A program made the position numbers and the translations under genes. A stretch of DNA of 64,000 nt from Aureispira sp. CCB-QB1. GTDB taxonomy: Bacteria > Bacteroidota > Bacteroidia > Chitinophagales > Saprospiraceae. Positions within the stretch are counted from its first letter, which is position 1, and every line of letters begins with the position of its first letter. The stretch spans positions 1-64,000 of the forward strand of contig NZ_JHBV01000044.1 in NCBI RefSeq assembly GCF_000724545.1, in the 5' to 3' direction. Below the pieces are notes generated by a model that worked only from the letters and a program-made list of their open reading frames with translations, was not told the DNA's origin and made no database searches. Below are positions 45,626 through 64,000 of this stretch, piece by piece.

Positions 45626-48600
45626 CTACTTTATAATCACATCTATCGCTTCAGAATGTGCCGTAAACTCAGGGGCATACATAGATTGAATTGTTGTAAT
45701 CCCATTAGAAAATTGCCCCTTGTGGACGGCACGAAGGGTATATTCAAAAGTATATGCTCCTTTCTTTAACTCTCTAAAAAAGAAATTGCTAGAGGCATCT
45801 TTGGTCATTTGATAATAGCCTATGCCATTCTGATAATGATAACGACTGAGAACATTGGTCGGTTCAAAACCGGCTGCACGCATATCTTTTAGGTGTAAAT
45901 ATTCCATCGTTTGCCCTACTTCCAACTCAATTTTTACCAAAATCAAATCTCCTGGTTTTATGTCTGTTGTTTGAATTGGTGTGTGAACAACACCTGTTGT
46001 ACTTGGCGTTTGCAAGAACAGCTCTTTTTTTATCTTTAGAGGTGTTTCTTGAAAAGTGCGGATGTTTTCAAATTGCTCAAAGTATTGCCAATAAGCAGCA
46101 CCCAAAGCAGGCGTATTATTTTTATTGGTAATGCTTATGATTGCCATGTCTTTGTTGATCGAGTCAGAAGGCCAAGTTTTTTGAAAATAACCTGTTCCTA
46201 ATTCTTGATCCATAGTTGTGGACGAAAAGGATTCTTTTCCAATTTGAATGTCCAAACCAATTGAATGGTCTAACCAATTGTTGCCAGACATCAGCAAAGC
46301 GTAACAAGCGGTAGTAGTCGCTTTTGTACTAGCCCAAGCAGCTCCTTTTTTCTGGCGCAATAACCAAAGCTTTAGTAAGTAGACAGCAGCATCGTCTTTG
46401 GCTACTTCTTCAAATAGCTCAATCATAATGGCTTGCGTTTCTATTGGCAATTGATGCGAATAAAATCCCCATGGTTGCGTCCAATACATCCCTTGTGTTG
46501 AATCTATAATAGCTTGATTTTTTAAGCTGTCGGCAATCATTTGCGCATATTTACTTTGAGGACGGATGCGATGAGCAGCCAAAGCCAGTAAGCCTTGTTG
46601 ATAAATAGATTTATTGCGCCAATGCAACTTAGCTTGTTCCAAATAGTACTGAATGCTTTGAGCCAAAGCAGAGTCTTTTTGAATACTTGTAGCATCCCAA
46701 AAGAAACTTTTTGTATGTAAATATTGAATGGCAGAAGGACTCAGATTATCTTCCAAGCGCATGGCATCAGAATCTGGTTTAACTTGTTTGTTGTTTTGAT
46801 AATAATGTGCTAACTGCTGGTACTGTTGGATGATTTGTTGGTCTGTATAATCCAATGCTTTTTTCAGCATTTGTTGAATCGCTTTGTTTTTAGACCATGC
46901 ATTAGCACCCAATTGTTCTAATTTTGCCAACCCACTAAGAATATACTGTGTTATAAATGGACTGGAATGCCCTCCCTTAAACCAAGAAAAACCACCATCT
47001 TCCGATTGACGTTCTAGCAATTGGCGGCGGACTTTTTCAAACTCTTTAGCCATACGACTTAGTTTTAACAGCTGCCCCAAGTATTTTTGTCGCTCAGCAC
47101 TTGAATTCGATTGGAGCACCCAAGGCGTTTCTTCTAGTAAAACCGATTTCAAAGTGGGATTATTCAGCAATTTATCCAAACTAGAACTAGGAACATCTTT
47201 TGCTGCCCAAGTTTCAAATAGCTTTTCGAGTTTAGGGTTTTCAGTAATAATTTTCGTAGCCAAACTATTCGCATAAAACCTTGAAAACAATTGTTCTGAA
47301 CACTCATAAGGATATTCTATCAAATAAGGTAATGATAAAAGAGCTTCCCAAGCAGGGTTTGTGCTCATCTCTAAAGTAAATCGGTGTTGTTGTAAGGTAG
47401 TAGAAGCGTTGTGCTTCAAACCTTTAAAGACAACGTTTTGTTTTTGCTGTCCATGCGCCAAAATCGGCAAACTTTCCAAAACCAAGGTTTTATTACTAAT
47501 AACAGGCAACTGATTTTGTTCGCCATCTGAAAAATTATCAGCCTTTGCGATTATCTTATACAAAACAGGGTTAGTCCAGTCCTGCGGAACTTTTAAGGTC
47601 CAGTGAACTTTGGTAACAGCTTCTTGTTTTAAATCAAATGATTGAATGGTATTGATATGCTCAAACTGGACATCAATAGGAGCATTGGTCAGCGCATCAA
47701 AAAGCTGTAACGTCACTTTTCCAGCTAGTGGCTCTTGGCTTAGATTAGCAACTTTGGTGCTGATGTCAACCATATCCCCTTGACGCAGAAAACGGGGCGT
47801 GTTAGGCATGACCATTAACTTTTTTTGTGTGACCAGTTCTTTGTGACTAAGGGTCGTTTTTAAGTCTTTTGTATGCGCCAAGAGCCTGAATTTCCAGCTT
47901 GAAAGCGCCTCACTCATCTTAAATTTAATGCTAATACTACCTGTACTATCTGTATTTAGATGCGGGTAGAAGAAAACAGATTCTTTTAAGTCGGAGCGTA
48001 TTTCGACGTTGTTGAAGTTAGCAGACAAACTGTTTCGAGTTGCACCCCCTACATTATTGCTAGGAGAGAGCAATATAGCACCATTGGCATCACCATACTC
48101 GGCGGGAATTCCCGACGTAAAATTTGCAGAGCCCTCCAACTCATAACACATAATTATATTTCCATCATTGTATGTTAGTTGTGTGAATTCCTGTCGTTCC
48201 ATAGTAGCGATTTCCTTTTCCGCCAATTCCAAAACAGGAATAATAATATTTCGACCATGGGCATCAACAGGATAATAAGGCAAAGAATTAGGCTCTAAAT
48301 CTTGTTCATTCGGAATGCCATCACCATCTGCGTCCTTCGGCGTTGGGGGATGAGCATACCAAAATTGATTGAATTTTAGAAAAGAAGCAGTTGCATTGAT
48401 ATTGGGATCAACAATGGCGTAGGATTTGAGCGTAGGAAGCTGCCAGTTGGGCGATTGAGATACCTTAAATGTTCTTTGTTTGATATTATCTTTGCTGGAC
48501 CAATCCTCTAAACTTCTGTAATAAGAATTTTGATACACATCGAAATGCCAAGAATGGCTTGTTAGATGGTCTAAGGAACTATCGTACATAGAAGCTAGTA

Positions 48601-51600
48601 TTTCACTGGCAACTACCTCTCCATTAGGGCTAGTTATTTTTATAGTCCATTCTTCTTCTTGACCAGGTAGTAAATTGTCTCTAAAGGACAAATATTCTAT
48701 GGTTAAATCTTTATTGCTCCAAGGTACTTGAATGTAATTTTCAAAATCATGAAAACGATTATTATAAATAGACAGCAATCGGTAGTGCAAATTACCTCGA
48801 TGTTTCTCATTAAGTACAATAGGAACTTTTTGATAGGCTTGAGGTTGTAACCAACGGTATTCGTGTACTTTTTCATAGTTCTCTAGTTCTAGCAGAATAT
48901 GGGCATCGTCAAAGTAAGAACCAACCTCCAGTAGAATGGTATCTTGGGGTTCTCCAATCAAAAAACTATCTTTATTATAATGCAATAAAGCAACATTGTA
49001 AGTAGGAGAAGGGAAGGTATCTTGTAGGTTAAAATAACGAATCTCTTCTTGAGCTAAGACAAGGCTGCTGTCTTGATAAATAAAGCGAATGCGATATAAG
49101 CCTGTCGCCCAATTTAAGGTATTCAGTTGCCATTCTTTGGATGCCGCATGGACTTGGTCTTTATAAATAGTATCCAATACGACCCAATTGGCTTTGTGGC
49201 GTTGGTTGTCATAAGCTTCGTAGAGAGGGAAATCTTTCTCAAATGCTGCGACAGTAGTGATCGTTGTATCAGGGATATTCCACAGCCTATTGATATAAGG
49301 ATGCTTGGGAGTACTTAATTGCTCTATAACTAAATAAGTTTGAATTGAAACAGGCTGCTTAGAAGTAGAAGAACCTTGTTGTTTAGTGGCTTTGTAGTTG
49401 GCTATAGTTGAAGTCGAATGACGAACAATATTGGATTCATGGGCAAAAACAACATCTATAGAAGAATCATTTGAAGTTGAAAGGAAATAGTTGAGATTTT
49501 TTTGTGAAGTGTGCGTGGAACATTCAATGGTTTCGCCAGTTAAATCTACGATTGTCCCATGAAAGGAATAATCACTTTGATAGATCAAGGAATCTTTCTC
49601 TTTGTCAATTAACAATCGAACATAAAAGTTGCCCTTAGCATCAATCAAAGCAGTAGCTACTTTTAACGTATCTTGATATTCTTTTAGAATAGAATACTGA
49701 ATTTTTGCATCCATCAAAGGCATTCCAGAAAAAGTTTTAGCTGTTCCGACTACAACTAAAGTATCCCTATATTCACCAAGTACAACAAAGCTCTCAACTT
49801 TTGTTTGCAGTGTTGGTTTTTTGTATTCTTCAACATCGAAATAAACCTTATTCCTGCTCAAAGAGTCCTGCAGATGCATTTCCCCCAATAAAATACTATT
49901 CGGTATTCTAAATTGACCGCTATAAGCGCCATATTCATTGGTGGTAATGATTTGACTGGCTATTTTTTGTTGATTAGCATCATAGAAATGGATGGTTGTT
50001 TTTTGGCGGGGTAGAATATCACTAGTGCCATCGGTATTAAACTGAGTAAGAATGCCTTTGTATTGAATGTTTTGTCTCGGTCGATAAATAGGTTTGTCTG
50101 TAAAGAGGTAGGTTTTTTTACCTTTTTTTAGGCGACTGTAGTCATTGTATCTTAGCTGATGATCGTCTAGCCACAATTGGTCTTTGCCTTTTTTAATTCG
50201 AATGGAGTAAGGTTTTGTACGGTTTAAATGAGTCGTTAGATGCCCTTGGTTGTTGCTGTATTGGGTGTCAATTTTTTTCCAATCTTTATCTAAAAACTGA
50301 ACTTTTGCTTGCTCAATAGGCGCGCCATTTTTTCGATTAACAATAAAAAACTCATTAATAGACTGTCCTTTTTGAGGGCGCGCTCTAGCGATAAATGCCA
50401 AATCAGAAACTTGGAAATAAGCATAAACCAATCCATTTTTTTGATAAGAAAAATCAGCTTTGTGAGACATAATAAGTAGGTAAGCACCAGCTTTTTGAGC
50501 AGGAACCTTTATTTCAACAGAATGGTTTTTGAAATCATTTGACAACGGAATTTGCTCTTCCCAAGTATGACTATAATGAGATGCTATTTTAGCAATATAG
50601 GCACTCCAAATGGAATCGCGGGTTGTTGGTTTTGCTAATAAATCTAACTGGGCTTTTTCCTTGTAATAATGGTCAGGTAAAGGCAATAATTTGCAATAGA
50701 CTTTGTCAATATTTTTGCTCGTAACTTTAACTAAAATATTTTGTTGAGTTGGAGTCACTGCCTCTATGGACAGACTTAATTCTTTTTGTAGAATCTGATT
50801 CAATAGCGCTTGGCAATTTTTTGCTCCAACGGAGTTAGGAAAGCGCTGAATGGCTGCTTGACAGATATCGTGCGCCTTTTTTATATTCCAGCGATTATTA
50901 TAAATACTGTTTCTAAATTGAGGGTAATGATAACCATAAGGATTAAATAAGTCTTTGGCAACTTCATAACTAATCATGGTACCCATAGGAACATCTGCGT
51001 ATGTTTGTTCCATTTCTAGCAAGCGAGTTAGGTAATAGCTGTTGTGTTTTTTTATTCCTTCATAATTATAATTTAATCCAAAGACCATTCGCTCCAAGTC
51101 AAATTTGGCAAGTAGATTGCGTTGGTTATGCTTCAAATAATGGCGTAGAAGCACTTGGTATAATTTATAGATTTGAATTCTTTTAGCGTGCTCATCATCA
51201 ACTGTAAAATCAAAATGAATGAAATCTTCTACACGAACAAATGCCAAAGAATCACGAAAAGGATAGTGTTTTTTTGTCTTTTTATAAGTTGTATATGTCG
51301 ATTGATGGGTAAGGTAATCAATCGCATTATCAACCAGTAAATCATAGAGTGAGTAGTTGGGAAGCGTATTGGTTATGGTGTCAAGCCCTAGCAAAACCAC
51401 ATAATTATGTGCCCAAACATTTTTGGGTGCTGTTGATGCTATTGCGGACAGTAGGTAACGGCTGGTTTCTTCTTGATAAAGACGCAGCATATTATCAATA
51501 GAATCTTGCACAGGATCAGGATCAGAATCTAGGGTATAGTTGCCTGTCGCATTCCAAATAACCCTTCTAGCTTTAGGGCGGATATTATTACAAACATAAA

Positions 51601-51622
51601 AATCACGTTGATACTTGATCAA
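45626..51622 (-). CDS. Alpha-2-macroglobulin family protein, main part of a split gene
   Basis: This frame of 1,998 residues holds a TPR-like helical N-terminal part and a run of MG beta-domains with IYRPRQNIQYKGILTQF. A DADGDGIPNEQDLEPN loop lies in the linker before EIRSDLKESVFFYPHL. The thioester motif Cys-Ser-Glu-Gln (YPYECSEQLF) is at 47291-47302, and the C-terminal receptor-like domain ends in APEFTAHSEAIDVIIK. Bacterial macroglobulins trap proteases in the periplasm. The signal peptide lies in a separate upstream frame (51721-52155) because of a 143-bp tandem duplication, so this product alone would not be exported. Joined, the gene would be 2,128 residues. Confidence 0.85.
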   Translation of the reverse strand: MIKYQRDFYVCNNIRPKARRVIWNATGNYTLDSDPDPVQDSIDNMLRLYQEETSRYLLSAIASTAPKNVWAHNYVVLLGLDTITNTLPNYSLYDLLVDNAIDYLTHQSTYTTYKKTKKHYPFRDSLAFVRVEDFIHFDFTVDDEHAKRIQIYKLYQVLLRHYLKHNQRNLLAKFDLERMVFGLNYNYEGIKKHNSYYLTRLLEMEQTYADVPMGTMISYEVAKDLFNPYGYHYPQFRNSIYNNRWNIKKAHDICQAAIQRFPNSVGAKNCQALLNQILQKELSLSIEAVTPTQQNILVKVTSKNIDKVYCKLLPLPDHYYKEKAQLDLLAKPTTRDSIWSAYIAKIASHYSHTWEEQIPLSNDFKNHSVEIKVPAQKAGAYLLIMSHKADFSYQKNGLVYAYFQVSDLAFIARARPQKGQSINEFFIVNRKNGAPIEQAKVQFLDKDWKKIDTQYSNNQGHLTTHLNRTKPYSIRIKKGKDQLWLDDHQLRYNDYSRLKKGKKTYLFTDKPIYRPRQNIQYKGILTQFNTDGTSDILPRQKTTIHFYDANQQKIASQIITTNEYGAYSGQFRIPNSILLGEMHLQDSLSRNKVYFDVEEYKKPTLQTKVESFVVLGEYRDTLVVVGTAKTFSGMPLMDAKIQYSILKEYQDTLKVATALIDAKGNFYVRLLIDKEKDSLIYQSDYSFHGTIVDLTGETIECSTHTSQKNLNYFLSTSNDSSIDVVFAHESNIVRHSTSTIANYKATKQQGSSTSKQPVSIQTYLVIEQLSTPKHPYINRLWNIPDTTITTVAAFEKDFPLYEAYDNQRHKANWVVLDTIYKDQVHAASKEWQLNTLNWATGLYRIRFIYQDSSLVLAQEEIRYFNLQDTFPSPTYNVALLHYNKDSFLIGEPQDTILLEVGSYFDDAHILLELENYEKVHEYRWLQPQAYQKVPIVLNEKHRGNLHYRLLSIYNNRFHDFENYIQVPWSNKDLTIEYLSFRDNLLPGQEEEWTIKITSPNGEVVASEILASMYDSSLDHLTSHSWHFDVYQNSYYRSLEDWSSKDNIKQRTFKVSQSPNWQLPTLKSYAIVDPNINATASFLKFNQFWYAHPPTPKDADGDGIPNEQDLEPNSLPYYPVDAHGRNIIIPVLELAEKEIATMERQEFTQLTYNDGNIIMCYELEGSANFTSGIPAEYGDANGAILLSPSNNVGGATRNSLSANFNNVEIRSDLKESVFFYPHLNTDSTGSISIKFKMSEALSSWKFRLLAHTKDLKTTLSHKELVTQKKLMVMPNTPRFLRQGDMVDISTKVANLSQEPLAGKVTLQLFDALTNAPIDVQFEHINTIQSFDLKQEAVTKVHWTLKVPQDWTNPVLYKIIAKADNFSDGEQNQLPVISNKTLVLESLPILAHGQQKQNVVFKGLKHNASTTLQQHRFTLEMSTNPAWEALLSLPYLIEYPYECSEQLFSRFYANSLATKIITENPKLEKLFETWAAKDVPSSSLDKLLNNPTLKSVLLEETPWVLQSNSSAERQKYLGQLLKLSRMAKEFEKVRRQLLERQSEDGGFSWFKGGHSSPFITQYILSGLAKLEQLGANAWSKNKAIQQMLKKALDYTDQQIIQQYQQLAHYYQNNKQVKPDSDAMRLEDNLSPSAIQYLHTKSFFWDATSIQKDSALAQSIQYYLEQAKLHWRNKSIYQQGLLALAAHRIRPQSKYAQMIADSLKNQAIIDSTQGMYWTQPWGFYSHQLPIETQAIMIELFEEVAKDDAAVYLLKLWLLRQKKGAAWASTKATTTACYALLMSGNNWLDHSIGLDIQIGKESFSSTTMDQELGTGYFQKTWPSDSINKDMAIISITNKNNTPALGAAYWQYFEQFENIRTFQETPLKIKKELFLQTPSTTGVVHTPIQTTDIKPGDLILVKIELEVGQTMEYLHLKDMRAAGFEPTNVLSRYHYQNGIGYYQMTKDASSNFFFRELKKGAYTFEYTLRAVHKGQFSNGITTIQSMYAPEFTAHSEAIDVIIK

Positions 51623-51872
51623 TAAATCTGCTAGATGAGCATAAAGTAAGGCATTAACAATAGAGTCTTTGCTTTGGTCTATTTGGGCGAGTAATTTAGG
51701 TTTTAAAGCATCAATTACCGTTAAATAACATTACAAACATAAAAATCACGTTGATACTTGATCAATAAATCTGCTAGATGAGCATAAAGTAAGGCATTAA
51801 CAATAGAGTCTTTGCTTTGGTCTATTTGGGCGAGTAATTTAGGTTTTAAAGCATCAATTACCGTTAAATAAC
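51587..51872. repeat. Exact 143-bp tandem duplication inside a macroglobulin gene
   Basis: Unit 1 is 51587-51729 and unit 2 is 51730-51872; I see no difference between them. 143 is not divisible by three, so the duplication shifts the frame. Removing one unit leaves 6,387 bases from 52155 to 45626, divisible by three, and joins HLADLLIKYQRDFYVCN to NIRPKARRV in one frame. Confidence 0.95.
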
Positions 51873-52155
51873 AAAGGTGCTTTCTATGGCTACTATCTTG
51901 GAGTCCTAACTCTAGTTCTACTTCATATTTACTTCTAAACAAAAATGCTTTTACATAATGGGCTCTAGCACTTAAATCAATTGTATCGTGTCGAGATTGT
52001 TCCATTAATTGATTTAATAAAGGAATAGCAGGTTTTAAATCTCTATAATGTTCCAAAGAATCAATCTTAGCCCATTGCTGAGTGTAAGAGTTGGTTTGTG
52101 CAAAAGAGGCGTTTAGAAAGGATAGCAAAAATAACGTAACGATTAAAGGTTTCAT
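51721..52155 (-). pseudogene. N-terminal fragment of the split macroglobulin gene
   Basis: 144 residues with a signal peptide (MKPLIVTLFLLSFLNASFAQ) and the helical N-terminus of the macroglobulin family (SYTQQWAKIDSLEHYRDLKP). It ends prematurely with YQRDFYVCNVI where the tandem duplication shifts the frame; the same YQRDFYVCN recurs at the start of the downstream frame. As read, it would give a short secreted fragment. Collapse of the duplication would restore the full gene. Confidence 0.85.
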
Positions 52156-52244: not shown

Positions 52245-54659
52245 TTACTTTTACTCAACAGAGACTCGAACGCCCTCAGAGTGAGCCGTAAATTCAGGGG
52301 CATACATACATTGAATGGTGGTGATTCCATTGGAGAAATCACCTTTGTGATTGACTCGCAAAGGATATTCAAAGACATAAGTACCTTTAGATAAATAACT
52401 AAAGAAGAAGTTGGTCGAAGCATCTCTAGTACTTTCGTAATAGCCCAAACCTCCTTGGTATTTATACTGACTCAAGACATTGGTTGGTTCTAAACCAGCT
52501 GCTCTCATATCCTTCATGTGAACATATTCCATATCTCGATCAACCATCAATTCAATGCGAACTTTAATCAAGTCTCCAGGTTCTAAGGTTTGGCTATCAA
52601 TAGGTTTTAAGACAGGACCTCGATCGGTGTTAATTTGTTTGAACAGTTTCTTATTCAACGTCAAAGGTGTTTCTTTGAAATGCGTAATCTTGTCTAAATT
52701 CTCGAAGTATTGCCAGTACAAAGCTCCCCAAGCCACGACATTGTTTGGATTTTTGACCTTGATGTTTGCCATATCGTTGGTAATTTCATCTGCTTTCCAA
52801 GAAGTTTTAAAATACCCCGTTCCTGCTTCTTTCTTGATTTGAGATTGATCCAATTTTTTGTTGCCCAAAGTAATTTCAATTTCTTGGTCGTCCATCAACC
52901 AATTGTCACCGGACATGAGCAACGCATAACAAGCGGCGGCAGTAGCTTTGGTCGTTTTCCAATGAGTTGTCTGCTTGGCTTTTAGCAACCAAACTTTCAA
53001 ATCTTCTACTGCCTTAGCATCTTTAGCTACAACATCAAAGACCTCAATCATCAAGGCATGGGTTTCGATGGGCAGTTGATACCAAAAGTAACCCGATGGA
53101 TACTTCCAATACATGCCCATTTCATCGCTATTCAAGGCATTTTCTTTGGCAGCTGCAACAATTTTTTGAGGCGTTTCTAAGTCGGTTCCTTTTCTGTGGA
53201 AACCTAAGGCTAACAGTCCTTGCATATACATGGACTTATTTCTCCAATATTTTAGAGCTTGTCCTTCGTAGTACTGTATGGCTTCTAAAGTAGTTTTATT
53301 GGTAATTTTTTGCTCTAAAAAGAAGGTTCTAGCATAAAAATAATGAATGACCATTTGTCCTAGATGATCTTGCTCTAAGTACTCTTTTTCATTCTTGCTT
53401 CGTTTTGCCCATTTGAGCAATTCTTTGTAATGTCGAGCTAGCTCCACATCAATGTAGTCAACCGCTCGTTGAATCATTTTCGCCATCTTAGGATCAGATT
53501 GAATATCCTTGACCCCCAATTTATCTAGATGACCCATACCTTCTACAATATATTGGGTGATGTACCAGCTATCTCGACCACCAGGCATCCAACTAAAACC
53601 ACCGTTTGCCAATTGACGATCCGCCATTTTGTCCCTAGCTTTTGTCAATTCATTCGCCATACGATTAAGATCAAAAAGTACCCCAATATTTTTCTTTTGA
53701 GTCGCTTCACTTTGCGCTGCCAAAACCCAAGGCGTTTCTTCTAATAAAGCATATTTAAGTTCCTCATTTTTAGCCAAATTACTTTTTAAAGCATCGGTAT
53801 CAATATTTTTCCATTGATCAAAGACTCGTTTCACCTTGGGGTGTGCATTGGCAACATCAGAAGCCAAACTGTTGGCATAATAACGAGAGAAAATTTGTTC
53901 GGTACACTCATAAGGATATTCCATCAAATAAGGCAAAGATTGAATGGCATACCAAGCAGGGTTTTGTGTGAATTCTAAGGTCAGTTGATGGTGTTGGAGC
54001 GTTTTTGATTGACTGGCTTGAGCCATTCTATCAAAGGTGAATTTTTTAGTTTGTTTTCCTCGAACAGGGAGTGGTTGTGTTTCGGTGACCAACATACGAT
54101 TGGTCAGCACAGGAATAGCGGCTTCTTCGCCATCGGAGAAATCACCCGCTTTAGCAACGACTCGATGCGTAACAGGTGTGTTCCAACCATCAGGAATGTT
54201 GAGTTTCCAAGCCAAAGGGGTGGATTGTCCCGCTTGAGCATCAAAAGAAAGCGTAGCTTGAGTATTACCAAAAGCAGCATCAATAGGTTGCATGCTAATC
54301 GCATCAAAGAGTTGTAATTGAGCCTTACCCTTCATGGCTTTTTCAGTCAAGTTGCTGACCTTAGCTGTAAAGTAAATTTCATCCTTTTCTCTAAAGAACC
54401 GAGGGGCATTGGGAACAACCATCAAGTCTTTTTGAGTGACGACAGATTTGGTGTCAGAGACAAAAGCCAACTCCTTGGTATGCCCAAAGAGCATGAATTT
54501 CCATTTGGTTAAGGCTTCGTTCATCGTGAATTTAATGATGATATTTCCATCTTTATCGGTCATTAAATCAGGATAAAAGAAAACAGTTTCATTTAAGTTA
54601 GTACGAACGTTTATATCTCCAAAATCTTCTTCAGGAGCCTGCTCTGGTGCTTCAGGCTT
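52245..54659. repeat. Near-identical 2.4-kb block, copy 1 (macroglobulin 3' half)
   Basis: This aligns without gaps to 58518-60932 at a constant offset of 6,273 bases. I count about 18 substitutions in 2,415 bases by eye, clustered near the 5' (linker) side; long stretches (about 52,500-53,270 and 53,300-53,930) are identical. Identity starts 6 bases outside the stop codon and ends abruptly at the linker. Confidence 0.92.
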
Positions 54660-57600
54660 AGCTGTAATTTGGTCGTTAGAAACGACTGTTTTATCTTGTT
54701 CTGCATTCATAAAACCATCTGCTTCGACTTCTTCCATTTCTACAGAACTATCCATGATAGGAGCGCCCAATTTTGAACCTTCTTTTTTGGATCTCATGCG
54801 TCCTTTAGGACTGGCACTTTTATAAACCCGATTGCCACGAGAATAATCATATTCATAGAAAGAAAAACCATTCCAATCCAGTGTAGGGTAGGTTCTAGAT
54901 GCACCCGATTTGTAGGTATTCCAGTCATGTTGTAGCAAGGCAGAACCCACCGTAGTAAACGAATTATAACCTTGTAAACTTAAACTCCTGTAGGAACTAG
55001 GATGAATATTGAAGTACCAAGAATTAGCACTAAAAGCATCTAAGGAGGCATCATACATACCCGCTAGAAATTCGGCGGCAACTTTATCTCCTTTATGACC
55101 AGAAATTTTAATCTTCCATTCTTCTTTTTGACCAGGATATAGTTTGTCACGGAATGTAGCGTATTCAACTTTTAAATCTTTGTTGCTCCAAGGAACATAA
55201 ATCGTTCCTCCAGAGCTGTAAAAACGACCATCTTGAATGCTTGTTAGATGAAAATGTAGGTTGCCACGATGTTTTTCTTCTATTGAAAGACTACGAATGA
55301 TTCTTCCTTTGGGTTGAATCCATTCTCGATGTATAATTTGATGATCATGTTCTATCTCATACAATACATAAGCAGCCTTTTCGTAAGTGCCAAAATCTAT
55401 ATTGATACTAGTGTCTGGTTCAGCAGTAAAAGAACTTTGAGCGAGAAACAAAGCATTGTTGAGCGGTGTTTTTTTAGCTTTATTGCTATACAATGTAAAA
55501 AACTTTCGAATCTCAATCGGAGCACCGTATTTATCTTTAGTTTTAAGCGTAACTCTATAACGTCCTTGTTTCCAATTGTTGACGTTTTTTAGCTCTAATT
55601 TTTTTGATTGTTTCGTATCAAAAGAAGTCCTTAAAACTTCTTTAGAGACCGACCAGTTGTTGGGCTCGTCCTCATTTTTGAAAGCATACAAAGGAAACTT
55701 TTTCTTAAAGCTTTCTTTGTCCATGTTTTCATAGTCAGGTTTAGACCACAAACGATTCTTGTAAATAATATTGGGTGTTTTCAATTGTTCAATGACAATT
55801 TCTCCTTGTGCTGCTTCAAATTGATAGTTAAGGTTTTGTGTGTTAATGCCAAAAGAAGACGTGTTTTCTCTGTTGACATTTTCGGGGATAGACAAACTAA
55901 CATCCAAAGCAATATAACCTACTCGAACGGTAGATTGTGTCGTATGTGTCTCTCCTGTAATGTCGGTTACAGTAGCATGTACGGTATATTGAAATTCAGG
56001 ATTTTTATCTTTTGGAATAGAGCGATCTGCTATTGCTTCAAAAGCAATTTCATATTCTCCTTTTTCATTGGTTGTTGTTTCTCCAAAAGTGATCTCTTGT
56101 TGTTCTCTATTAAACGGAATGTACCAACCCCAACGCCAATTCCAATAAGGAAAACGAGCTTGGCGAACCACACGATATTGCACTTTGGCACCATCAATAT
56201 TATTACCTGCATAGGCTTTGGCGTGCCCTTGAACATGAACCGTATCGCCAATTTTGTAGGACTCCTTGATGGGCAGAGCAACGACTTCAAACTTAGGACG
56301 CTTGTATTCTTCAACTCTAAAATACTTTGTACTGTGGCTATGACTATCTTCCAAGTACATTTGACCCAACAAGCCACCTTTAGGAGCAGTGAATGAGCCA
56401 CTAAAAGAACCATATTCATTGGTGGTTACCGTTACATCGGCTACTTTTTGTCGGTTGGCATCGTAAAAGGTAATGATTCGTTGTTGATTGGGGACAATTT
56501 TTTGATCTTTGCCATCTGTCATATGACTCAAGACCAAGCCCTTGAAGTAGACCAATTGTCCTGGGCGATAAATTGCTCTATCCAAAAAGAAATGTGTTGT
56601 CTGTTTTTGATAAGGAGCATTAGGATCATGGTTGTAGTAAGAGTCGTCGAGAAATAAAACATCCTCTTTTTGGGATAATTTAATGAAATAAGAACTTTGG
56701 TAATAACCATTTTTAGTTTGTAATCCTTGACTACTAATTAAACCATTTTTATCACTATCAGTCGTGTGTGCACGAATGGTTTCGTAACGTCTTAAAAGGC
56801 TATTGTATTTGGATACATAAAATTCTGCACGAACGCCTTCTAAAGGCATACCTGTTGTTCTATTCGTTACATAAAAACTATAATTTCCGTCATTTTGACG
56901 CGCTACAAGACTCATATTAGATACAAAGAAAGAACTATAGGCAATGCCATTTTCTTTGTAGGAAAAATCTTCATCCGCAGAGACTGCAATAATATAACGA
57001 CCATTAGATAGTTTGGGAATTTCAAACTCAATGGTGTGATTTTGATAATCCCCCTCATCTTTAATCTCCAAAGACCATTGGTAAGTGCTGGATAATTTGC
57101 GCAAATATGCAGCACGTTTTTCGCCATACTTTTCATTCAAAGTAGTGTGTTGAGCTTTTGTAATCGGAATGGCTCTAAAGTATACTTTTTGTAGATTTTT
57201 GTAACTTAACAGAGCTAAGATAGGGGCATCAATCGCATTAATCTTTTCTACATTCAGAGACATATTCTTCTGCTGAATACTGCCGATTAGAGCTTCGCAG
57301 TGAGAAGCACCGTAAGACTTGGGGTATTGCTCTATTGCTTTTTGGCAAATTTCGTATGCTTTTTTGATATCCCAACGATATTGCTCGGTTGGAGAAGGTT
57401 GGTATTTTTGTCCTTGATTATAATAATAAGTAGCAATTTGAAAAGCAATTTCAGCGGCAACTTCTTGTTTTTTGTATTGTTGATGAAGTGCTTCTAAACG
57501 ATCTAAATAAAGTAAGTTTTTATCATTTAAAATAGATTTGTTTAAAACATAACGCAATCGTCTAAGTTCTAAATCAATATAAGCTTTGGGGTCTTTGTCA

Positions 57601-58415
57601 TCAACATGAAAGGCTAATGCTTCTTGATACAAACGCAAGGTTTGAAATTCCGAGGCAAGGCTATCTTTAGCTTTTAGTGTTGTATTAATAAAACTTGACC
57701 CATCGGCAAAATGTACTTTAGAATCCAAATAAAACTTAAAGGCAGGTTTCGTTAAATAGTATTTCTCAGACTCAAAAAAATCAAGGGCGCGATGAACAAG
57801 AAAATCATAGAGCGTTGGGCGTAGTCCCTCTACATTAAAAGAACTGTAGGTGATGGCTTCAAAATCTTTTATAGCCAACGTTTTGGTCTCATCATAAGTG
57901 ATGCTTTGGTGGTACAATTCAAAGCATTTTTCTGTAATCCTAGCAACATCCCAAGTCCGAATATCTTCTTGTTTAAAATCTGCTGTTTTGGTTCGGTTTT
58001 GAAACTTGTACAAATGTTGGTTGAGATAACGGTCGTACATTTCAGCTACCATCGATAACAAAATAGGCTTGATTGGAGCTGTGGCTGTTTTTGCTTCTTC
58101 TTGAAAACGATAAATGGCTTTGATCAAACCATCTTCTTCTAAGCGTGCCTGATATTTATTAATAAATAAAAGGGCTTTGATTAACTGCGCCGTTTGGGCA
58201 GGATTTTCAGCGTCTTTTTTAATTTGAGTATAGAGCTTTTGAGTTTCTTCTAGTGCAGACTTGGTCAAACCATCATACTCTAATTTGTTGATGGCTTCCC
58301 AAGCTTTGGGATAATTATTCATTGTTGTCTTATTTGGTTTTTGTGCAAATAGGTTGATAGATAATGCAACCGTTATAAAGGCACAGATAATTCCCCAATA
58401 TTTATTTTTTTGCAT
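52251..58415 (-). CDS. Alpha-2-macroglobulin family protein, middle paralog
   Basis: From the ATG at 58415 the product is 2,054 residues with a signal peptide (MQKNKYWGIICAFITVALSINLFAQ). An N-terminal helical/TPR-like region runs to about 400. MG domains follow, with AIYRPGQLVYFKGLVLS near 615, then a disordered Glu/Lys/Pro-rich linker (about 1,190-1,255) where a bait region is expected, then INVRTNLNETVFFYPDL. The thioester Cys1504-Thr-Glu-Gln (YPYECTEQIF) and terpenoid-cyclase-like helical domain follow, then a C-terminal MG domain. Bait cleavage by a protease would trigger thioester coupling. The last 2.4 kb is nearly identical to the next paralog. An in-frame start at 58478 is rejected because it precedes the signal peptide. 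Confidence 0.9.
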   Translation of the reverse strand: MQKNKYWGIICAFITVALSINLFAQKPNKTTMNNYPKAWEAINKLEYDGLTKSALEETQKLYTQIKKDAENPAQTAQLIKALLFINKYQARLEEDGLIKAIYRFQEEAKTATAPIKPILLSMVAEMYDRYLNQHLYKFQNRTKTADFKQEDIRTWDVARITEKCFELYHQSITYDETKTLAIKDFEAITYSSFNVEGLRPTLYDFLVHRALDFFESEKYYLTKPAFKFYLDSKVHFADGSSFINTTLKAKDSLASEFQTLRLYQEALAFHVDDKDPKAYIDLELRRLRYVLNKSILNDKNLLYLDRLEALHQQYKKQEVAAEIAFQIATYYYNQGQKYQPSPTEQYRWDIKKAYEICQKAIEQYPKSYGASHCEALIGSIQQKNMSLNVEKINAIDAPILALLSYKNLQKVYFRAIPITKAQHTTLNEKYGEKRAAYLRKLSSTYQWSLEIKDEGDYQNHTIEFEIPKLSNGRYIIAVSADEDFSYKENGIAYSSFFVSNMSLVARQNDGNYSFYVTNRTTGMPLEGVRAEFYVSKYNSLLRRYETIRAHTTDSDKNGLISSQGLQTKNGYYQSSYFIKLSQKEDVLFLDDSYYNHDPNAPYQKQTTHFFLDRAIYRPGQLVYFKGLVLSHMTDGKDQKIVPNQQRIITFYDANRQKVADVTVTTNEYGSFSGSFTAPKGGLLGQMYLEDSHSHSTKYFRVEEYKRPKFEVVALPIKESYKIGDTVHVQGHAKAYAGNNIDGAKVQYRVVRQARFPYWNWRWGWYIPFNREQQEITFGETTTNEKGEYEIAFEAIADRSIPKDKNPEFQYTVHATVTDITGETHTTQSTVRVGYIALDVSLSIPENVNRENTSSFGINTQNLNYQFEAAQGEIVIEQLKTPNIIYKNRLWSKPDYENMDKESFKKKFPLYAFKNEDEPNNWSVSKEVLRTSFDTKQSKKLELKNVNNWKQGRYRVTLKTKDKYGAPIEIRKFFTLYSNKAKKTPLNNALFLAQSSFTAEPDTSINIDFGTYEKAAYVLYEIEHDHQIIHREWIQPKGRIIRSLSIEEKHRGNLHFHLTSIQDGRFYSSGGTIYVPWSNKDLKVEYATFRDKLYPGQKEEWKIKISGHKGDKVAAEFLAGMYDASLDAFSANSWYFNIHPSSYRSLSLQGYNSFTTVGSALLQHDWNTYKSGASRTYPTLDWNGFSFYEYDYSRGNRVYKSASPKGRMRSKKEGSKLGAPIMDSSVEMEEVEADGFMNAEQDKTVVSNDQITAKPEAPEQAPEEDFGDINVRTNLNETVFFYPDLMTDKDGNIIIKFTMNEALTKWKFMLFGHTKELAFVSDTKSVVTQKDLMVVPNAPRFFREKDEIYFTAKVSNLTEKAMKGKAQLQLFDAISMQPIDAAFGNTQATLSFDAQAGQSTPLAWKLNIPDGWNTPVTHRVVAKAGDFSDGEEAAIPVLTNRMLVTETQPLPVRGKQTKKFTFDRMAQASQSKTLQHHQLTLEFTQNPAWYAIQSLPYLMEYPYECTEQIFSRYYANSLASDVANAHPKVKRVFDQWKNIDTDALKSNLAKNEELKYALLEETPWVLAAQSEATQKKNIGVLFDLNRMANELTKARDKMADRQLANGGFSWMPGGRDSWYITQYIVEGMGHLDKLGVKDIQSDPKMAKMIQRAVDYIDVELARHYKELLKWAKRSKNEKEYLEQDHLGQMVIHYFYARTFFLEQKITNKTTLEAIQYYEGQALKYWRNKSMYMQGLLALGFHRKGTDLETPQKIVAAAKENALNSDEMGMYWKYPSGYFWYQLPIETHALMIEVFDVVAKDAKAVEDLKVWLLKAKQTTHWKTTKATAAACYALLMSGDNWLMDDQEIEITLGNKKLDQSQIKKEAGTGYFKTSWKADEITNDMANIKVKNPNNVVAWGALYWQYFENLDKITHFKETPLTLNKKLFKQINTDRGPVLKPIDSQTLEPGDLIKVRIELMVDRDMEYVHMKDMRAAGLEPTNVLSQYKYQGGLGYYESTRDASTNFFFSYLSKGTYVFEYPLRVNHKGDFSNGITTIQCMYAPEFTAHSEGVRVSVE

Positions 58416-58470
58416 AATGTTTATTTTTAAGTTTAGGTATTGGGTCGTGTGATTTTGATATTTTAATTGA

Positions 58471-58506
58471 TTAGGCAATTTGAAAACGATATTCCAAATT
58501 GCCTAA
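58471..58506 (-). terminator. Hairpin after the right-hand macroglobulin gene
   Basis: A perfect 12-bp stem, TTAGGCAATTTG and CAAATTGCCTAA, lies between the stop at 58524 and the next gene's ATG at 58415. No strong T-run follows on the minus strand, so termination may be partial and the macroglobulin genes may form an operon. Confidence 0.55.
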
Positions 58507-58517
58507 TAGAAATAGCC

Positions 58518-60932
58518 TTACTTTTACTCAACAGAGACTCGAACGCCCTCAGAGTGAGCCGTAAATTCAGGGGCATACATACATTGAATGGTGGTGATTC
58601 CATTGGAGAAATCACCTTTGTGATTGACTCGCAAAGGATATTCAAAGACATAAGTACCTTTAGATAAATAACTAAAGAAGAAGTTGGTCGAAGCATCTCT
58701 AGTACTTTCGTAGTAGCCCAAACCTCCTTGGTATTTATACTGACTCAAGACATTGGTTGGTTCTAAACCGGCTGCTCTCATATCCTTCATGTGAACATAT
58801 TCCATATCTCGATCAACCATCAATTCAATGCGAACTTTAATCAAGTCTCCAGGTTCTAAGGTTTGGCTATCAATAGGTTTTAAGACAGGACCTCGATCGG
58901 TGTTAATTTGTTTGAACAGTTTCTTATTCAACGTCAAAGGTGTTTCTTTGAAATGCGTAATCTTGTCTAAATTCTCGAAGTATTGCCAGTACAAAGCTCC
59001 CCAAGCCACGACATTGTTTGGATTTTTGACCTTGATGTTTGCCATATCGTTGGTAATTTCATCTGCTTTCCAAGAAGTTTTAAAATACCCCGTTCCTGCT
59101 TCTTTCTTGATTTGAGATTGATCCAATTTTTTGTTGCCCAAAGTAATTTCAATTTCTTGGTCGTCCATCAACCAATTGTCACCGGACATGAGCAACGCAT
59201 AACAAGCGGCGGCAGTAGCTTTGGTCGTTTTCCAATGAGTTGTCTGCTTGGCTTTTAGCAACCAAACTTTCAAATCTTCTACTGCCTTAGCATCTTTAGC
59301 TACAACATCAAAGACCTCAATCATCAAGGCATGGGTTTCGATGGGCAGTTGATACCAAAAGTAACCCGATGGATACTTCCAATACATGCCCATTTCATCG
59401 CTATTCAAGGCATTTTCTTTGGCAGCTGCAACAATTTTTTGAGGCGTTTCTAAGTCGGTTCCTTTTCTGTGGAAACCTAAGGCTAACAGTCCTTGCATAT
59501 ACATGGACTTATTTCTCCAATATTTTAGAGCTTGTCCTTCGTAGTACTGGATGGCTTCCAAAGTAGTTTTATTGGTAATTTTTTGCTCTAAAAAGAAGGT
59601 TCTAGCATAAAAATAATGAATGACCATTTGTCCTAGATGATCTTGCTCTAAGTACTCTTTTTCATTCTTGCTTCGTTTTGCCCATTTGAGCAATTCTTTG
59701 TAATGTCGAGCTAGCTCCACATCAATGTAGTCAACCGCTCGTTGAATCATTTTCGCCATCTTAGGATCAGATTGAATATCCTTGACCCCCAATTTATCTA
59801 GATGACCCATACCTTCTACAATATATTGGGTGATGTACCAGCTATCTCGACCACCAGGCATCCAACTAAAACCACCGTTTGCCAATTGACGATCCGCCAT
59901 TTTGTCCCTAGCTTTTGTCAATTCATTCGCCATACGATTAAGATCAAAAAGTACCCCAATATTTTTCTTTTGAGTCGCTTCACTTTGCGCTGCCAAAACC
60001 CAAGGCGTTTCTTCTAATAAAGCATATTTAAGTTCCTCATTTTTAGCCAAATTACTTTTTAAAGCATCGGTATCAATATTTTTCCATTGATCAAAGACTC
60101 GTTTCACCTTGGGGTGTGCATTGGCAACATCAGAAGCCAAACTGTTGGCATAATAACGAGAGAAAATTTGTTCGGTACACTCATAAGGATATTCCATCAA
60201 ATAAGGCAAGGATTGAATGGCATACCAAGCAGGGTTTTGCGTGAATTCTAAGGTCAGTTGATGGTGTTGGAGCGTTTTTGATTGACTGGCTTGAGCCATT
60301 CTATCAAAGGTGAATTTTTTAGTTTGTTTTCCTCGAACAGGGAGCGGTTGTGTTTCGGTGACCAACATGCGATTGGTCAGCACAGGAATAGCAGCTTCTT
60401 CGCCATCGGAGAAATCACCCGCTTTAGCAACGACTCGATGCGTAACAGGTGTGTTCCAACCATCAGGAATGTTGAGTTTCCAAGCCAAAGGGGTGGATTG
60501 TCCCGCTTGAGCATCAAAAGAAAGCGTAGCTTGAGTATTACCAAAAGCAGCATCAATAGGTTGCATGCTAATCGCATCAAAGAGTTGTAATTGAGCCTTA
60601 CCCTTCATGGCTTTTTCAGTCAAGTTGTTGACCTTAGCTGTAAAGTAAATTTTATCATTTTCTCTAAAGAATCGAGGGGCATTGGGAACAACCATCAAGT
60701 CTTTTTGAGTGACGACAGATTTGGTGTCAGAGACAAAAGCCAACTCCTTGGTATGCCCAAAAAGCATGAATTTCCATTTGGTTAAGGCTTCGTTCATTGT
60801 GAATTTAATGATGATATTTCCATCTTTATCGGTCATTAAATCAGGATAAAAGAAAACAGTTTCATTTAAGTTGGTACGAACATTTATATCTCCAAAATCT
60901 TCTTCAGGAGCCTGCTCTAGTGCTTCAGGCTT
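58518..60932. repeat. Near-identical 2.4-kb block, copy 2 (macroglobulin 3' half)
   Basis: Partner of 52245-54659. Upstream of 60932 in gene direction, the linker sequence (60933-61110) is unrelated to that of the middle paralog. Homology then resumes at clearly lower identity through the MG domains. Confidence 0.92.
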
Positions 60933-63900
60933 GTTCGTTGCTAATTGTTGTTCGTTGACACTAGAATCTTTAGGTCTAAAATCGGCAATGGTAGCAGAAG
61001 AAGGAGTTGGAGGGGCAGGAGCTCGATTCATAGACTTCTCTCTAATTCCACCAGATTGCACTTCTTCTACAACTTCAACATCTTCAGATTCAAATACCTC
61101 ATCATAGCGACCACCTCTAGCGTAGTCCCATTCATAAAAAGAAAATCCATTCCAATTAAATGTTTTGTAGGTTCTAGATTGACCATAACTGTATGCATTC
61201 CAGTTTGACCCTAATAAACTTGAGCCTACATAGTAGAAATTTTGATTTCCTTGAAGTGACATATTGCGATAACTCGTAGGGTGAATAGTCATGTTCCAAG
61301 AGTTAGCAGCAAAAGCATCTAAAGAGGCATCATACATACCCGCTAAAAATTCAGCCGCAACTTTATCTCCTTTATGACCTGAGATTTTAATTTTCCATTC
61401 TTCTTTTTGCCCAGGATATAACTTGTCACGGAATGTAGCGTATTCGACTTTTAAATCTTTATTGCTCCAAGGAACATAAATGGTTCCTCCCGAAGTATAC
61501 AAACGATTGCTTTGTGTGCTTGTTAGGTGAAAGTGTAAATTGCCACGATGTTTTTCTTCTATAGCAATCTCAACTTTTGTTCTTCCTTTGGGTTGAATCC
61601 ATTCTTTTTTTACAATTTGATTATCATGTTCTACCTCATATAAAACATAAGCAGCTTTGTTATGCGCACCAAAATCCAATGTTACCGTTTCCCCAGGTTC
61701 TTTCGTAAAAGAAGTTTGGGCTACAAATAAGGCATTATTGACAGGAGTTGTTTTTTCTTTAGAGCTATAAAGCGTAAAGAATCGAACCAATTCAATTGCT
61801 TTTCCGTATTTGTCTTGGGTTTTTAGAGTGACCTTATAAGCACCTTGCGTCCATTTTTGGATCTTTTTAAGGTCGAGTTCTTTGGATTTTTCTGTGTCAA
61901 AAGCTGTTTTTAAAACTTCTTTGGCAACGTTCCATTTTTGTTGCTCGTCCTCGTTTTTATAAGCATAATGAGGAAATTTCTCTTGGAATTTCTCTGCGGT
62001 TAAAATAGTATAATAATCAGGCTTAGCCCAAAAACGATTGCTATAAACAGTTTTAGGTGTTTGTAGCTGTTCGATGACAATAGAACCTTTAGCAGCTTCA
62101 AATTCGGCATTTAAATTTTTACTGTTAATGATAAATGCTTCGGCATTTTCTCTATCTACATTTTCAGGAATAGACAAACTAATATCTAAAGCAATATAAC
62201 CAACTTTGACGGTTGTTTGCACCGTATGCGTTTCGCCTGTAATATCGGTAACTGTAGCATAAACGGTGTAGTTAAATTGCGGGTTTTTATCTTTGGGAAT
62301 AGAACGATCGGCTAAAGCCTTAAAGGTGATTTCATATTCTCCTTTTTCGTTGGTAGTTGTTTCTCCAAAAGCAATTTCTTGAACCTCTTGATTGAATGGG
62401 ATATACCATCCCCAACGCCAGTTCCAGTATGGAAAGTTAGCCTTTCTTACAACACGATATTGAACTTTGGCACCATCAATATTATTACCAGCATAAGCTT
62501 TGGCGTGCCCTTGAACTTTTACAGAATCATTTATTTTGAAAGATTCTTTTACGGGCAATGCAATGACTTCAAATTTAGGTCTTTTGTATTCTTCTACTCG
62601 AAAATACTTGTTGCTATTGTTTTGGGTATCTTCAATTCGCATTTGCCCTGTTAAACCACTCGAAGGAGCTGTGAAAGAACCATTAAAAGAGCCATAGTCG
62701 TTGGTCGTAACTTTTGCTTCGGCTATTTTTTGATAATTGGCATCATAAAAGACAATGGTACGGGCTTGGTTTGGAACAATTTTAGGATTTTTTCCATTCG
62801 TCATACGTTTTAAAACCAATCCTTTGAAATAAACAATTTGACCTGGTCTATAAATCGCTCTATCCAAAAAGAAGGTTGTAAATTCTTGTTCATAGGGTTC
62901 GCTATTATTATAATTATAATAAGAATCGTCTAAGAACAACTCGTCATCTTCGTGTGTAAGTTTAACAAAAAAAGAATTGTTATAATATGAATTTTTAGCT
63001 TTAAAGTTGGTGGTCTGAAAATAACCATTTTTATCACTTTGGGCATTGCCAGCTTTGACAGTTTCGTATCGACGCAACAAACTATTGTAGGTAGAAACAT
63101 AAAACTCAGCTTTTACATCAGAAAGTGGCTTGCCAGTTACTCTATCTGTTAGATAAAATGTTTGTTTTCCATCTTCTGATCGAGTGCTAAAGCTGATGTT
63201 AGAAACATGAAAAAGACTATAAGCAATGCCATTTTCTGAGTATGAAAAATCTTCATTGGCAGAGGCAGCAATGAGGTAACGTCCGTTTCTTAATTTGGGA
63301 ATACTAAATTCAACGCTGTGTTGTTGATAATCCCCTTCATCCTTGAGTTCGTTAGACCATTTATAAGCACCTGAAAGATTTTTTAGATAGGCAGCCCTAG
63401 CCTTTCCGTATTTGCTATTAAAAGCATCGTATTGTGCCTTGGTAATTGGGATAGCTCTAAAATAGAGTTTAGAAAGGTTTTTGTAAGTAATCAGACCTAA
63501 AGTGGGTTGATTGATAGGATTTACTTTTTCTACATTCAGTGAGATGCTTTTGCTTTTGATCGTTGCCATTAAGTTCTTGCAATGAGAAGCGCCGTAAGAC
63601 GAAGGGAAAGCTTTTACCGCTTTTTCGCAAATTTCATATGCCTTTTTTATATCCCAACGATATTGCTCGGTTGGAGAAGGTTGGTATTTTTGCCCTTGAC
63701 GATGATAATGCATGGCAATTTTATAGGCAATCTCTGTAGAAATTGCTTGATCTTTGTGTTTTTTAAACAAAGCTTCCAAACGTTCTATATACAATATCTC
63801 TTTGTCGTTTCGAATGGATTTGTTTTTAACAAACTCTAGGCGTTTTAAGTCCAAATCAATTAAAGCTCTAGGGTTGTCCAAATGGAAAGCCAAGCCTTTT

Positions 63901-64000
63901 TGAAATAAAATGAGCGCTTGAAAATTAGCAGAAAGACTATCTTTGGCAGTTAAACTACGTTTAGAAAATTCAGCAGCACCAGCAAAATCTTCTTCTGAGT
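58524..64000 (-). CDS. Alpha-2-macroglobulin family protein, right-hand paralog (5' end beyond window)
   Basis: The frame stays open to the right edge, past a TTG at 63893: the codons before it read SEEDFAGAAEFSKRSLTAKD, matching the middle paralog. So the N-terminus and signal peptide lie outside the window. Visible are the helical N-terminal part, MG domains (AIYRPGQIVYFKGLVLKR), and a linker with SGGIREKSMNRAPAPPTPSS that differs from the middle paralog. NVRTNLNETVFFYPDL follows, then the CTEQ thioester at 60168-60179 and the C-terminal domain. It is probably a periplasmic or surface protease trap like its neighbour. Confidence 0.9.
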   Translation of the reverse strand, partial: SEEDFAGAAEFSKRSLTAKDSLSANFQALILFQKGLAFHLDNPRALIDLDLKRLEFVKNKSIRNDKEILYIERLEALFKKHKDQAISTEIAYKIAMHYHRQGQKYQPSPTEQYRWDIKKAYEICEKAVKAFPSSYGASHCKNLMATIKSKSISLNVEKVNPINQPTLGLITYKNLSKLYFRAIPITKAQYDAFNSKYGKARAAYLKNLSGAYKWSNELKDEGDYQQHSVEFSIPKLRNGRYLIAASANEDFSYSENGIAYSLFHVSNISFSTRSEDGKQTFYLTDRVTGKPLSDVKAEFYVSTYNSLLRRYETVKAGNAQSDKNGYFQTTNFKAKNSYYNNSFFVKLTHEDDELFLDDSYYNYNNSEPYEQEFTTFFLDRAIYRPGQIVYFKGLVLKRMTNGKNPKIVPNQARTIVFYDANYQKIAEAKVTTNDYGSFNGSFTAPSSGLTGQMRIEDTQNNSNKYFRVEEYKRPKFEVIALPVKESFKINDSVKVQGHAKAYAGNNIDGAKVQYRVVRKANFPYWNWRWGWYIPFNQEVQEIAFGETTTNEKGEYEITFKALADRSIPKDKNPQFNYTVYATVTDITGETHTVQTTVKVGYIALDISLSIPENVDRENAEAFIINSKNLNAEFEAAKGSIVIEQLQTPKTVYSNRFWAKPDYYTILTAEKFQEKFPHYAYKNEDEQQKWNVAKEVLKTAFDTEKSKELDLKKIQKWTQGAYKVTLKTQDKYGKAIELVRFFTLYSSKEKTTPVNNALFVAQTSFTKEPGETVTLDFGAHNKAAYVLYEVEHDNQIVKKEWIQPKGRTKVEIAIEEKHRGNLHFHLTSTQSNRLYTSGGTIYVPWSNKDLKVEYATFRDKLYPGQKEEWKIKISGHKGDKVAAEFLAGMYDASLDAFAANSWNMTIHPTSYRNMSLQGNQNFYYVGSSLLGSNWNAYSYGQSRTYKTFNWNGFSFYEWDYARGGRYDEVFESEDVEVVEEVQSGGIREKSMNRAPAPPTPSSATIADFRPKDSSVNEQQLATNKPEALEQAPEEDFGDINVRTNLNETVFFYPDLMTDKDGNIIIKFTMNEALTKWKFMLFGHTKELAFVSDTKSVVTQKDLMVVPNAPRFFRENDKIYFTAKVNNLTEKAMKGKAQLQLFDAISMQPIDAAFGNTQATLSFDAQAGQSTPLAWKLNIPDGWNTPVTHRVVAKAGDFSDGEEAAIPVLTNRMLVTETQPLPVRGKQTKKFTFDRMAQASQSKTLQHHQLTLEFTQNPAWYAIQSLPYLMEYPYECTEQIFSRYYANSLASDVANAHPKVKRVFDQWKNIDTDALKSNLAKNEELKYALLEETPWVLAAQSEATQKKNIGVLFDLNRMANELTKARDKMADRQLANGGFSWMPGGRDSWYITQYIVEGMGHLDKLGVKDIQSDPKMAKMIQRAVDYIDVELARHYKELLKWAKRSKNEKEYLEQDHLGQMVIHYFYARTFFLEQKITNKTTLEAIQYYEGQALKYWRNKSMYMQGLLALGFHRKGTDLETPQKIVAAAKENALNSDEMGMYWKYPSGYFWYQLPIETHALMIEVFDVVAKDAKAVEDLKVWLLKAKQTTHWKTTKATAAACYALLMSGDNWLMDDQEIEITLGNKKLDQSQIKKEAGTGYFKTSWKADEITNDMANIKVKNPNNVVAWGALYWQYFENLDKITHFKETPLTLNKKLFKQINTDRGPVLKPIDSQTLEPGDLIKVRIELMVDRDMEYVHMKDMRAAGLEPTNVLSQYKYQGGLGYYESTRDASTNFFFSYLSKGTYVFEYPLRVNHKGDFSNGITTIQCMYAPEFTAHSEGVRVSVE

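Follow-up and report, generated by a model that had tools for sequence, protein, structure and literature searches.

Which proteases trigger a macroglobulin is set by its bait region, but nature seldom offers a comparison in which the trap stays constant. Two adjacent genes at the end of the DNA analysed here, a stretch of 64,000 nucleotides from Aureispira sp. CCB-QB1 (contig NZ_JHBV01000044.1, hereafter the window), appear to provide one, in that the alpha-2-macroglobulin-like proteins that they encode, A and B, have nearly the same thioester half behind different linkers at the bait position. The questions raised by this locus are how the second halves of the two genes have been kept alike and whether it is selection that has kept the baits different. 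With regard to the first, A and B are very probably thioester protease traps that arose by tandem duplication and underwent repeated gene conversion from the end of the bait to the stop codon, as well as in a short stretch upstream, leaving the bait between them as a distinct island. The two genes and their parts are as follows.

52251-58478, minus strand: gene A, alpha-2-macroglobulin-like, an open reading frame (ORF) of 2075 residues and the downstream member of the A/B pair
58524-64000, minus strand: gene B, a paralog of A that is interrupted by the window end and continues past it
52251-54659, minus strand: homogenised tract in A (blastn and codon comparison)
58524-60932, minus strand: homogenised tract in B (blastn and codon comparison)
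53895-53906, minus strand: thioester motif CTEQ in A
60168-60179, minus strand: thioester motif CTEQ in B
54612-54851, minus strand: bait-position linker of A, 80 residues, the last ~15 inside the homogenised tract
60885-61130, minus strand: bait-position linker of B, 82 residues
54852-55031, minus strand: pre-bait segment of A, paralog-specific, which with the linker makes up an island of 140 residues
61131-61310, minus strand: pre-bait segment of B
55032-55196, minus strand: upstream converted stretch in A, in the first part of the bait-bearing macroglobulin (MG) domain
61311-61475, minus strand: upstream converted stretch in B

Extent of the homogenised tract

Comparison of A with B by blastn yields a single block of 2,409 bp with 99.25% identity, 18 mismatches and no gaps, upstream of which identity is 73.6% over 2,640 alignment columns (70% by codon alignment). 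The tract encodes the end of the bait, the remainder of the MG domain that bears it, MG7, the CUB domain, the thioester domain and the C-terminal MG domain, and includes the stop codon. Identity of the copies extends 6 nt beyond the stop codon both in the window genome (G000) and in G156, a second strain that is of the same species by its label, and it stops ~8 nt ahead of the stop codon in G003, which like G006 belongs to another Aureispira species. At its other end the tract reaches ~15 residues into the linker, where KPEA[P/L]EQAPEEDFGDI is common to both copies and is followed by NVRTN. A preliminary description of this DNA had reported a block of about 99% identity ending abruptly just before NVRTNLNETVFF and linkers that were wholly different. 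The block stands and so does the difference between the linkers, whose nucleotide identity is 0.30 over 44 aligned codons, but the edge has to be moved since the last ~15 linker residues are homogenised too. A second and partial homogenised stretch of ~165 bp lies just upstream of the bait region in both genes.

Evidence for gene conversion

Synonymous differences per site between the second halves of A and B amount to 0.029 in the window genome and 0.056 in G003, whereas orthologs of these two genomes differ by 0.71-0.72 in the same half and those of the other species pairs by 0.59-0.65. The second halves of G003 are near-identical to each other and unlike those of the window genome. In the first half, the corresponding values are 0.66-0.70 in all eight comparisons. 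The trees of the two halves conflict in the same manner. A tree of the first half (15 rows) has an A clade of four rows and a B clade of five, each with support of 100/99, and grouping by genome is rejected by the approximately unbiased (AU) test (p 3.5e-29 and 6.9e-47). The tree of the second half (14 rows, LG+G4) leaves out the A gene of G006, which is cut by a contig end, and retains G004 and the B gene of G006 though they are incomplete; it joins A and B of G003 (100/100), joins the four rows of G000 and G156 (100/100), separates the two G000 copies from G156 (97/94), and rejects grouping by A or B (p 4.8e-65 and 2.1e-53).

Sites can be termed concerted if the copies agree within a genome and not between genomes, and orthologous if the orthologs agree. 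When the genes of the two strains are compared, 60 sites vary in the final 2,412 nt, of which 24 are concerted, five are paralog-specific and 31 are changes in a single copy; the concerted sites imply that exchange continued after the strains parted. Recurrent gene conversion as the process that homogenises the thioester half, which the preliminary description had proposed, is thus strongly supported by sequence comparison of several kinds, namely synonymous sites, trees, sites that vary between the strains, and the site counts on both flanks of the bait that are given below. It is true that the second half is the better conserved at the protein level even in the unconverted pair of genome G105 (0.73 vs 0.49 at the amino acid level), as would be expected were purifying selection on the thioester half responsible, but selection on the protein alone is ruled out by synonymous sites that are alike within genomes and near saturation between them, and the second halves of the unconverted pairs in G105 and G221 have only 0.74 and 0.80 nucleotide identity. 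Collapse of the two copies during assembly is likewise ruled out, as the same pair is found in G156 (2 contigs) and G003 (3 contigs), so that three assemblies agree on it, and the copies truly differ. That either of these, rather than conversion, accounts for the likeness of the copies has next to no probability.

A bait island between converted flanks

The counts of concerted and orthologous sites change sharply along the genes. Comparison of G000 with G003 gives concerted to orthologous ratios of 62:128 in the first 700 columns, 18:1 in the 62 columns before the pre-bait segment, 8:25 in the pre-bait segment and bait, and 453:0 in the second half. The first 700 columns are predominantly orthologous in the other two comparisons as well (54:202 and 62:145, again concerted to orthologous). 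For the upstream stretch and for the pre-bait segment with the bait, respectively, the ratios are 7:0 and 9:36 between G000 and G006 and 18:0 and 5:26 between G003 and G006. Fisher tests of the island against the upstream stretch return p values of 1.1e-6, 8.6e-5 and 2.9e-9, which are guides only since neighbouring sites are not independent. The bait itself aligns poorly, but the pre-bait segment alone, which is near gap-free, has the same outcome (1:16, 3:22 and 3:20). As judged from these site patterns, the bait lies in an island of 140 residues that is bracketed by conversion on both sides. The island is not the only part that keeps its A or B identity, as most of the first half does so too, and in G003 conversion is also seen within the first half, at columns ~720-900. 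Both flanks of the bait have undergone conversion in three species, and none of the four two-copy genomes shows one bait replaced by the other.

Location and composition of the linker

Assignment of the linker to the bait-carrying MG domain, as originally suggested, agrees with three lines of evidence. The linker of A is followed immediately by the Pfam A2M domain, which starts at residue 1298. A profile of 46 relatives aligns the segment that follows the linker with TVRKYFPETW of human A2M, a sequence that follows the human bait region (9e-5 for the whole sequence; the alignment across the bait is weak by itself). In a structure model of A (ORF residues 882-2075), which has a mean predicted local distance difference test score (pLDDT) of 79.7, the only long stretch with pLDDT <50 is at model residues 306-402 (ORF 1187-1283) and corresponds to the linker. 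The alignment with an E. coli A2M (ECAM) fragment that begins at MG7 (4ziu) starts at model residue 469, and those with several complement alpha chains start at model residues 413-416. Because these alignments start after the linker, it would be an insert of the bait-bearing MG domain, which is MG6 in human and MG8 in bacterial numbering (PMC4498604, available portion). The best structural matches of the model include the E. coli and Salmonella macroglobulins; whole-model TM-scores are low (0.20-0.35, query-normalised, among the matches listed) and single domains match better than their arrangement. A disordered linker at the bait position is the prediction that the model supports.

The linkers of A and B contain 11 and 8 Lys or Arg residues. 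Since both carry common cleavage residues, many proteases could cut both of them. The first half of the linker is more positive than the last in 36 of the 46 relatives (Wilcoxon p 4e-5), a tendency that falls short of a rule of basic-first, acidic-last polarity. At the linker position of two flavobacterial genes (L078 11780-15460 and L082 11510-15193) there is a TonB-dependent receptor plug domain, PF07715 (E 2e-8 and 1e-8), and a third gene (L089 11192-14836) appears by eye to have the same; in these proteins a folded module occupies the position where a bait is expected.

In A, and in that portion of B which lies in the window, PF01835 (MG2), PF00207 (A2M) and PF17973 (bMG10, the C-terminal MG domain) all exceed the cut-off, consistent with membership of the alpha-2-macroglobulin superfamily. 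Glu and Gln of the thioester motif are invariant in the 46-row alignment and its Cys nearly so, and in the C-terminal domain Met-Tyr (columns 1177-1178) and Asp-x-Arg (columns 1109 and 1111) are invariant in the same rows. These residues were matched by eye with the EXMY and RDDR motifs, the Glu of EXMY being Gln in the present proteins; both motifs have roles in the lock formed with the C-terminal domain (PMC4498604, available portion). In the N-terminal part, residues 35-380 are modelled as a helical array, for which there was no strong structural match: the best hits had Z of ~10 with unlike helical proteins, within noise, and a known fold for the array was rejected. Read by eye, the N-terminus of B has no Cys and that of A has a single one, at position 11, which is not preceded by the customary small residue; from these N-termini A and B may be predicted to reside in the periplasm or outside the cell.

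Does selection keep the baits different?

Three explanations for the persistence of different baits can be weighed. One is that conversion takes place where the copies are alike, and that a fast, indel-rich linker together with a diverged first half stops strand exchange, making the edge at the bait a by-product. Heterology of this type is a sufficient cause for the tract edges, which coincide with drops in identity, and the upstream converted stretch likewise ends where similarity drops. The linkers of orthologs, moreover, are almost as unlike (nucleotide identity 0.37-0.49) as those of paralogs (0.30-0.43). In principle, unlike inserts with matching arms on either side can be exchanged during repair, so that some conversions spanning the bait might be expected; conversion on both sides in three species, yet no bait replacement in four two-copy genomes, is awkward for a simple barrier without being decisive. 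We give this explanation an even chance. It is also conceivable, though unlikely, that A and B are kept apart for the sake of their first halves (the helical N-terminal part and first MG domains), for instance because these have different partners, with the difference in baits being incidental. The A- or B-specific character of the first 700 columns and the helical array without strong structural match would fit, but this does not explain why both flanks of the bait have been converted and the island has not, and the conversion at columns ~720-900 in G003 falls inside a first half.

The third explanation is adaptive: selection would favour different protease specificities and remove conversions that equalise the baits. 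The island does retain its A or B ancestry while both sides convert, and the linkers are the fastest region between species, with non-synonymous differences of 0.50-0.62 per site compared with 0.11-0.18 in the first half (five ortholog pairs). In animals, moreover, alternative splicing supplies different baits to an otherwise constant trap (PMC7016707, available portion). However, the bait changes rapidly inside each clade, A as well as B, which is compatible both with weak constraint and with selection, and the ratio of non-synonymous to synonymous change (dN/dS) is unusable for the linker on account of synonymous saturation and poor alignability. The adaptive explanation is further weakened by common cleavage residues in both linkers and by the near-identity of the linkers in the two strains, and we regard it as possible but doubtful. 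Active diversification of the bait, as the preliminary description had it, is not evident from these data: the linkers are fastest between species, yet differ by one and two amino acids between strains. Between the strains the linkers are near-identical, and divergence along the genes is uneven, being greatest in the second half. One trap with different baits, which might be called a cassette, is a plausible reading of these sequences.

Several observations weigh against the interpretation of A and B as homogenised traps with distinct baits. The Pfam bait model PF07703 has no match in A (up to E 1) or in the window part of B (E 0.001), and the alignment with human A2M across the bait has an i-Evalue of 7.6. 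The second halves in G006, where only 67 codons are comparable, are less alike than those of the other genomes (synonymous differences 0.148). No pair is seen in five of the nine genomes of the genus, one of them cut by a contig end, and therefore two traps are not needed throughout Aureispira. Between the strains, the one (A) and two (B) amino acid changes in the linkers all lie in the acidic tail, and the 240 nt before the tract differ by one and two nucleotides. In the second half, by contrast, the strains are further apart (41 and 38 of 2,412 nt) than they are in the first (9 of 3,597 and 24 of 3,558 nt), which amounts to 1.6-1.7% for the homogenised half and 0.25-0.67% for the first half. 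The trap is constant in that it is alike between the copies; it is not slow to evolve. In the homogenised half, eight of the changes between G000 and G156 fall inside 19 nt and are common to both copies, as if brought in by an outside donor.

Proposed mechanism and comparison with known systems

A tandem duplication that preceded the separation of at least four Aureispira species would have given rise to A and B. By analogy with the family, a protease would cut the disordered bait, whose freed end would drive the thioester domain off the C-terminal domain; the thioester, exposed in this way, would then form a covalent bond with the protease. For E. coli A2M it is described that bait cleavage releases a disordered end, which binds to the C-terminal MG domain and dislodges the thioester domain, so that the thioester becomes exposed (PMC4498604, available portion). 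The end of the bait, the thioester and the C-terminal domain, all of them within the homogenised tract, may accordingly be viewed as a functional module whose parts work together after the cut. Less certainly, a single trap mechanism would stand behind two different triggers in the same cell. As a tentative and rather improbable extension, A and B could be a bacterial counterpart of bait-exon splicing, in which conversion on both sides of a protected bait spreads every improvement of the trap to both copies while selection keeps two triggers; these would perhaps serve for the proteases of prey and for the own secreted proteases of this predatory bacterium.

E. coli YfhM/ECAM and Salmonella SaA2M resemble A and B in having a CXEQ thioester, an array of MG domains, a bait in the MG domain before MG7, and a C-terminal MG domain with conserved Met-Tyr, and they are among the best structural matches. 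They are Type I bacterial macroglobulins (PMC5764988, available portion). They differ in that no lipobox was recognised by eye in A and B, which also have the helical N-terminal part and no Pfam A2M_BRD match; a separate macroglobulin with A2M_BRD (L117) is encoded in the same genome. ECAM/YfhM has a PBP1c gene next door, whereas no such domain was found among eight neighbouring proteins scanned with Pfam. Conversion between adjacent thioester-protein genes is described for Anopheles TEP1 and neighbouring TEP loci, where, in the available portion of PMC2576239, it made alleles of the thioester region diverge; in A and B the thioester half is kept alike and the bait is spared. Invertebrate A2M/TEP proteins with spliced bait exons (PMC7016707, available portion) also combine one constant trap with several baits, but they do so by splicing within one gene rather than by conversion between two tandem genes.

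Concerted evolution of tandem paralogs is a known process, and A and B share with it both the process and the conflict between trees; its occurrence in this protein family and the sparing of a bait island are new. Each of the ingredients (macroglobulins, diverse baits and conversion) is known already. In the titles and abstract openings among the matches listed by a literature search, outside which most subscription papers lay, no conversion between bacterial macroglobulin genes that spares the bait was found. With two baits set before one and the same thioester half in a single cell, the pair is a natural comparison that would allow bait function to be studied with no need of engineering; it also parallels, in a bacterium, the spliced baits of invertebrates. 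For annotators and those who build trees it is also a warning, as the second half records conversion and not descent.

Distribution and neighbouring genes

The macroglobulin family is present in all nine Aureispira genomes examined. A and B are contiguous in G000, G156 and G003, and the pair in G006 is inferred from fragments: one contig has a C-terminal end and then an A-type gene, and a second contig has a B-type gene. A single gene is seen in G001, G002, G005 and G007, and one, cut by a contig end, in G004. In G001, a draft of 560 contigs, a B-type gene is directly followed by what looks by eye like the start of gene C (L003 7063-7316) and no gene A is seen; this arrangement fits loss of A by recombination between two homogenised second halves. 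At family level, a match is present in 259 of the 298 genomes. Homogenisation is seen neither in the tandem pair of G105 nor between the two G221 genes, which are on separate contigs, so that homogenisation is ruled out as a general trait of the family, being known only in Aureispira among the matches listed.

Three macroglobulin-like genes are arranged in tandem on the minus strand at the window end, and are transcribed in the order B, A, C. The likely start of A is an internal ATG that gives 2054 residues, and B is complete in the contig (locus L021 7528-13737). The third gene is in two pieces in the window:

45626-51622, minus strand: gene C, a third, diverged macroglobulin with 47% protein identity to A in the second half
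51721-52155, minus strand: N-terminal piece of gene C, separate from the main ORF in the window genome

Gene C (45626-52155) is thereby split into a piece of 144 residues and an ORF of 1998 residues, and in G156 it is one open frame of 2134 residues (L112 801-7202). No signal of conversion with A or B was found for it. L117 8607-14147 encodes another, separate macroglobulin, which has CVEQ and in which the bait domain PF07703 is recognised; together with A, B and C this makes at least four macroglobulin genes in the window genome. In NCBIfam, no family was matched by A, by the portion of B inside the window, by gene C, by the L117 protein or by a small protein encoded ahead of B. The gene for the latter (L021 13750-14346; ~180-200 residues, with a shared ending like NKYHLIEAAGFL) stands ahead of B or of the single gene in the eight Aureispira loci that hold that flank; the L021 copy has no Pfam match either, and by eye its N-terminus resembles a lipoprotein signal. 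Elsewhere in the window, positions 38391-40697 encode a trypsin-like peptidase that carries a MAM domain as well as a type IX secretion tail.

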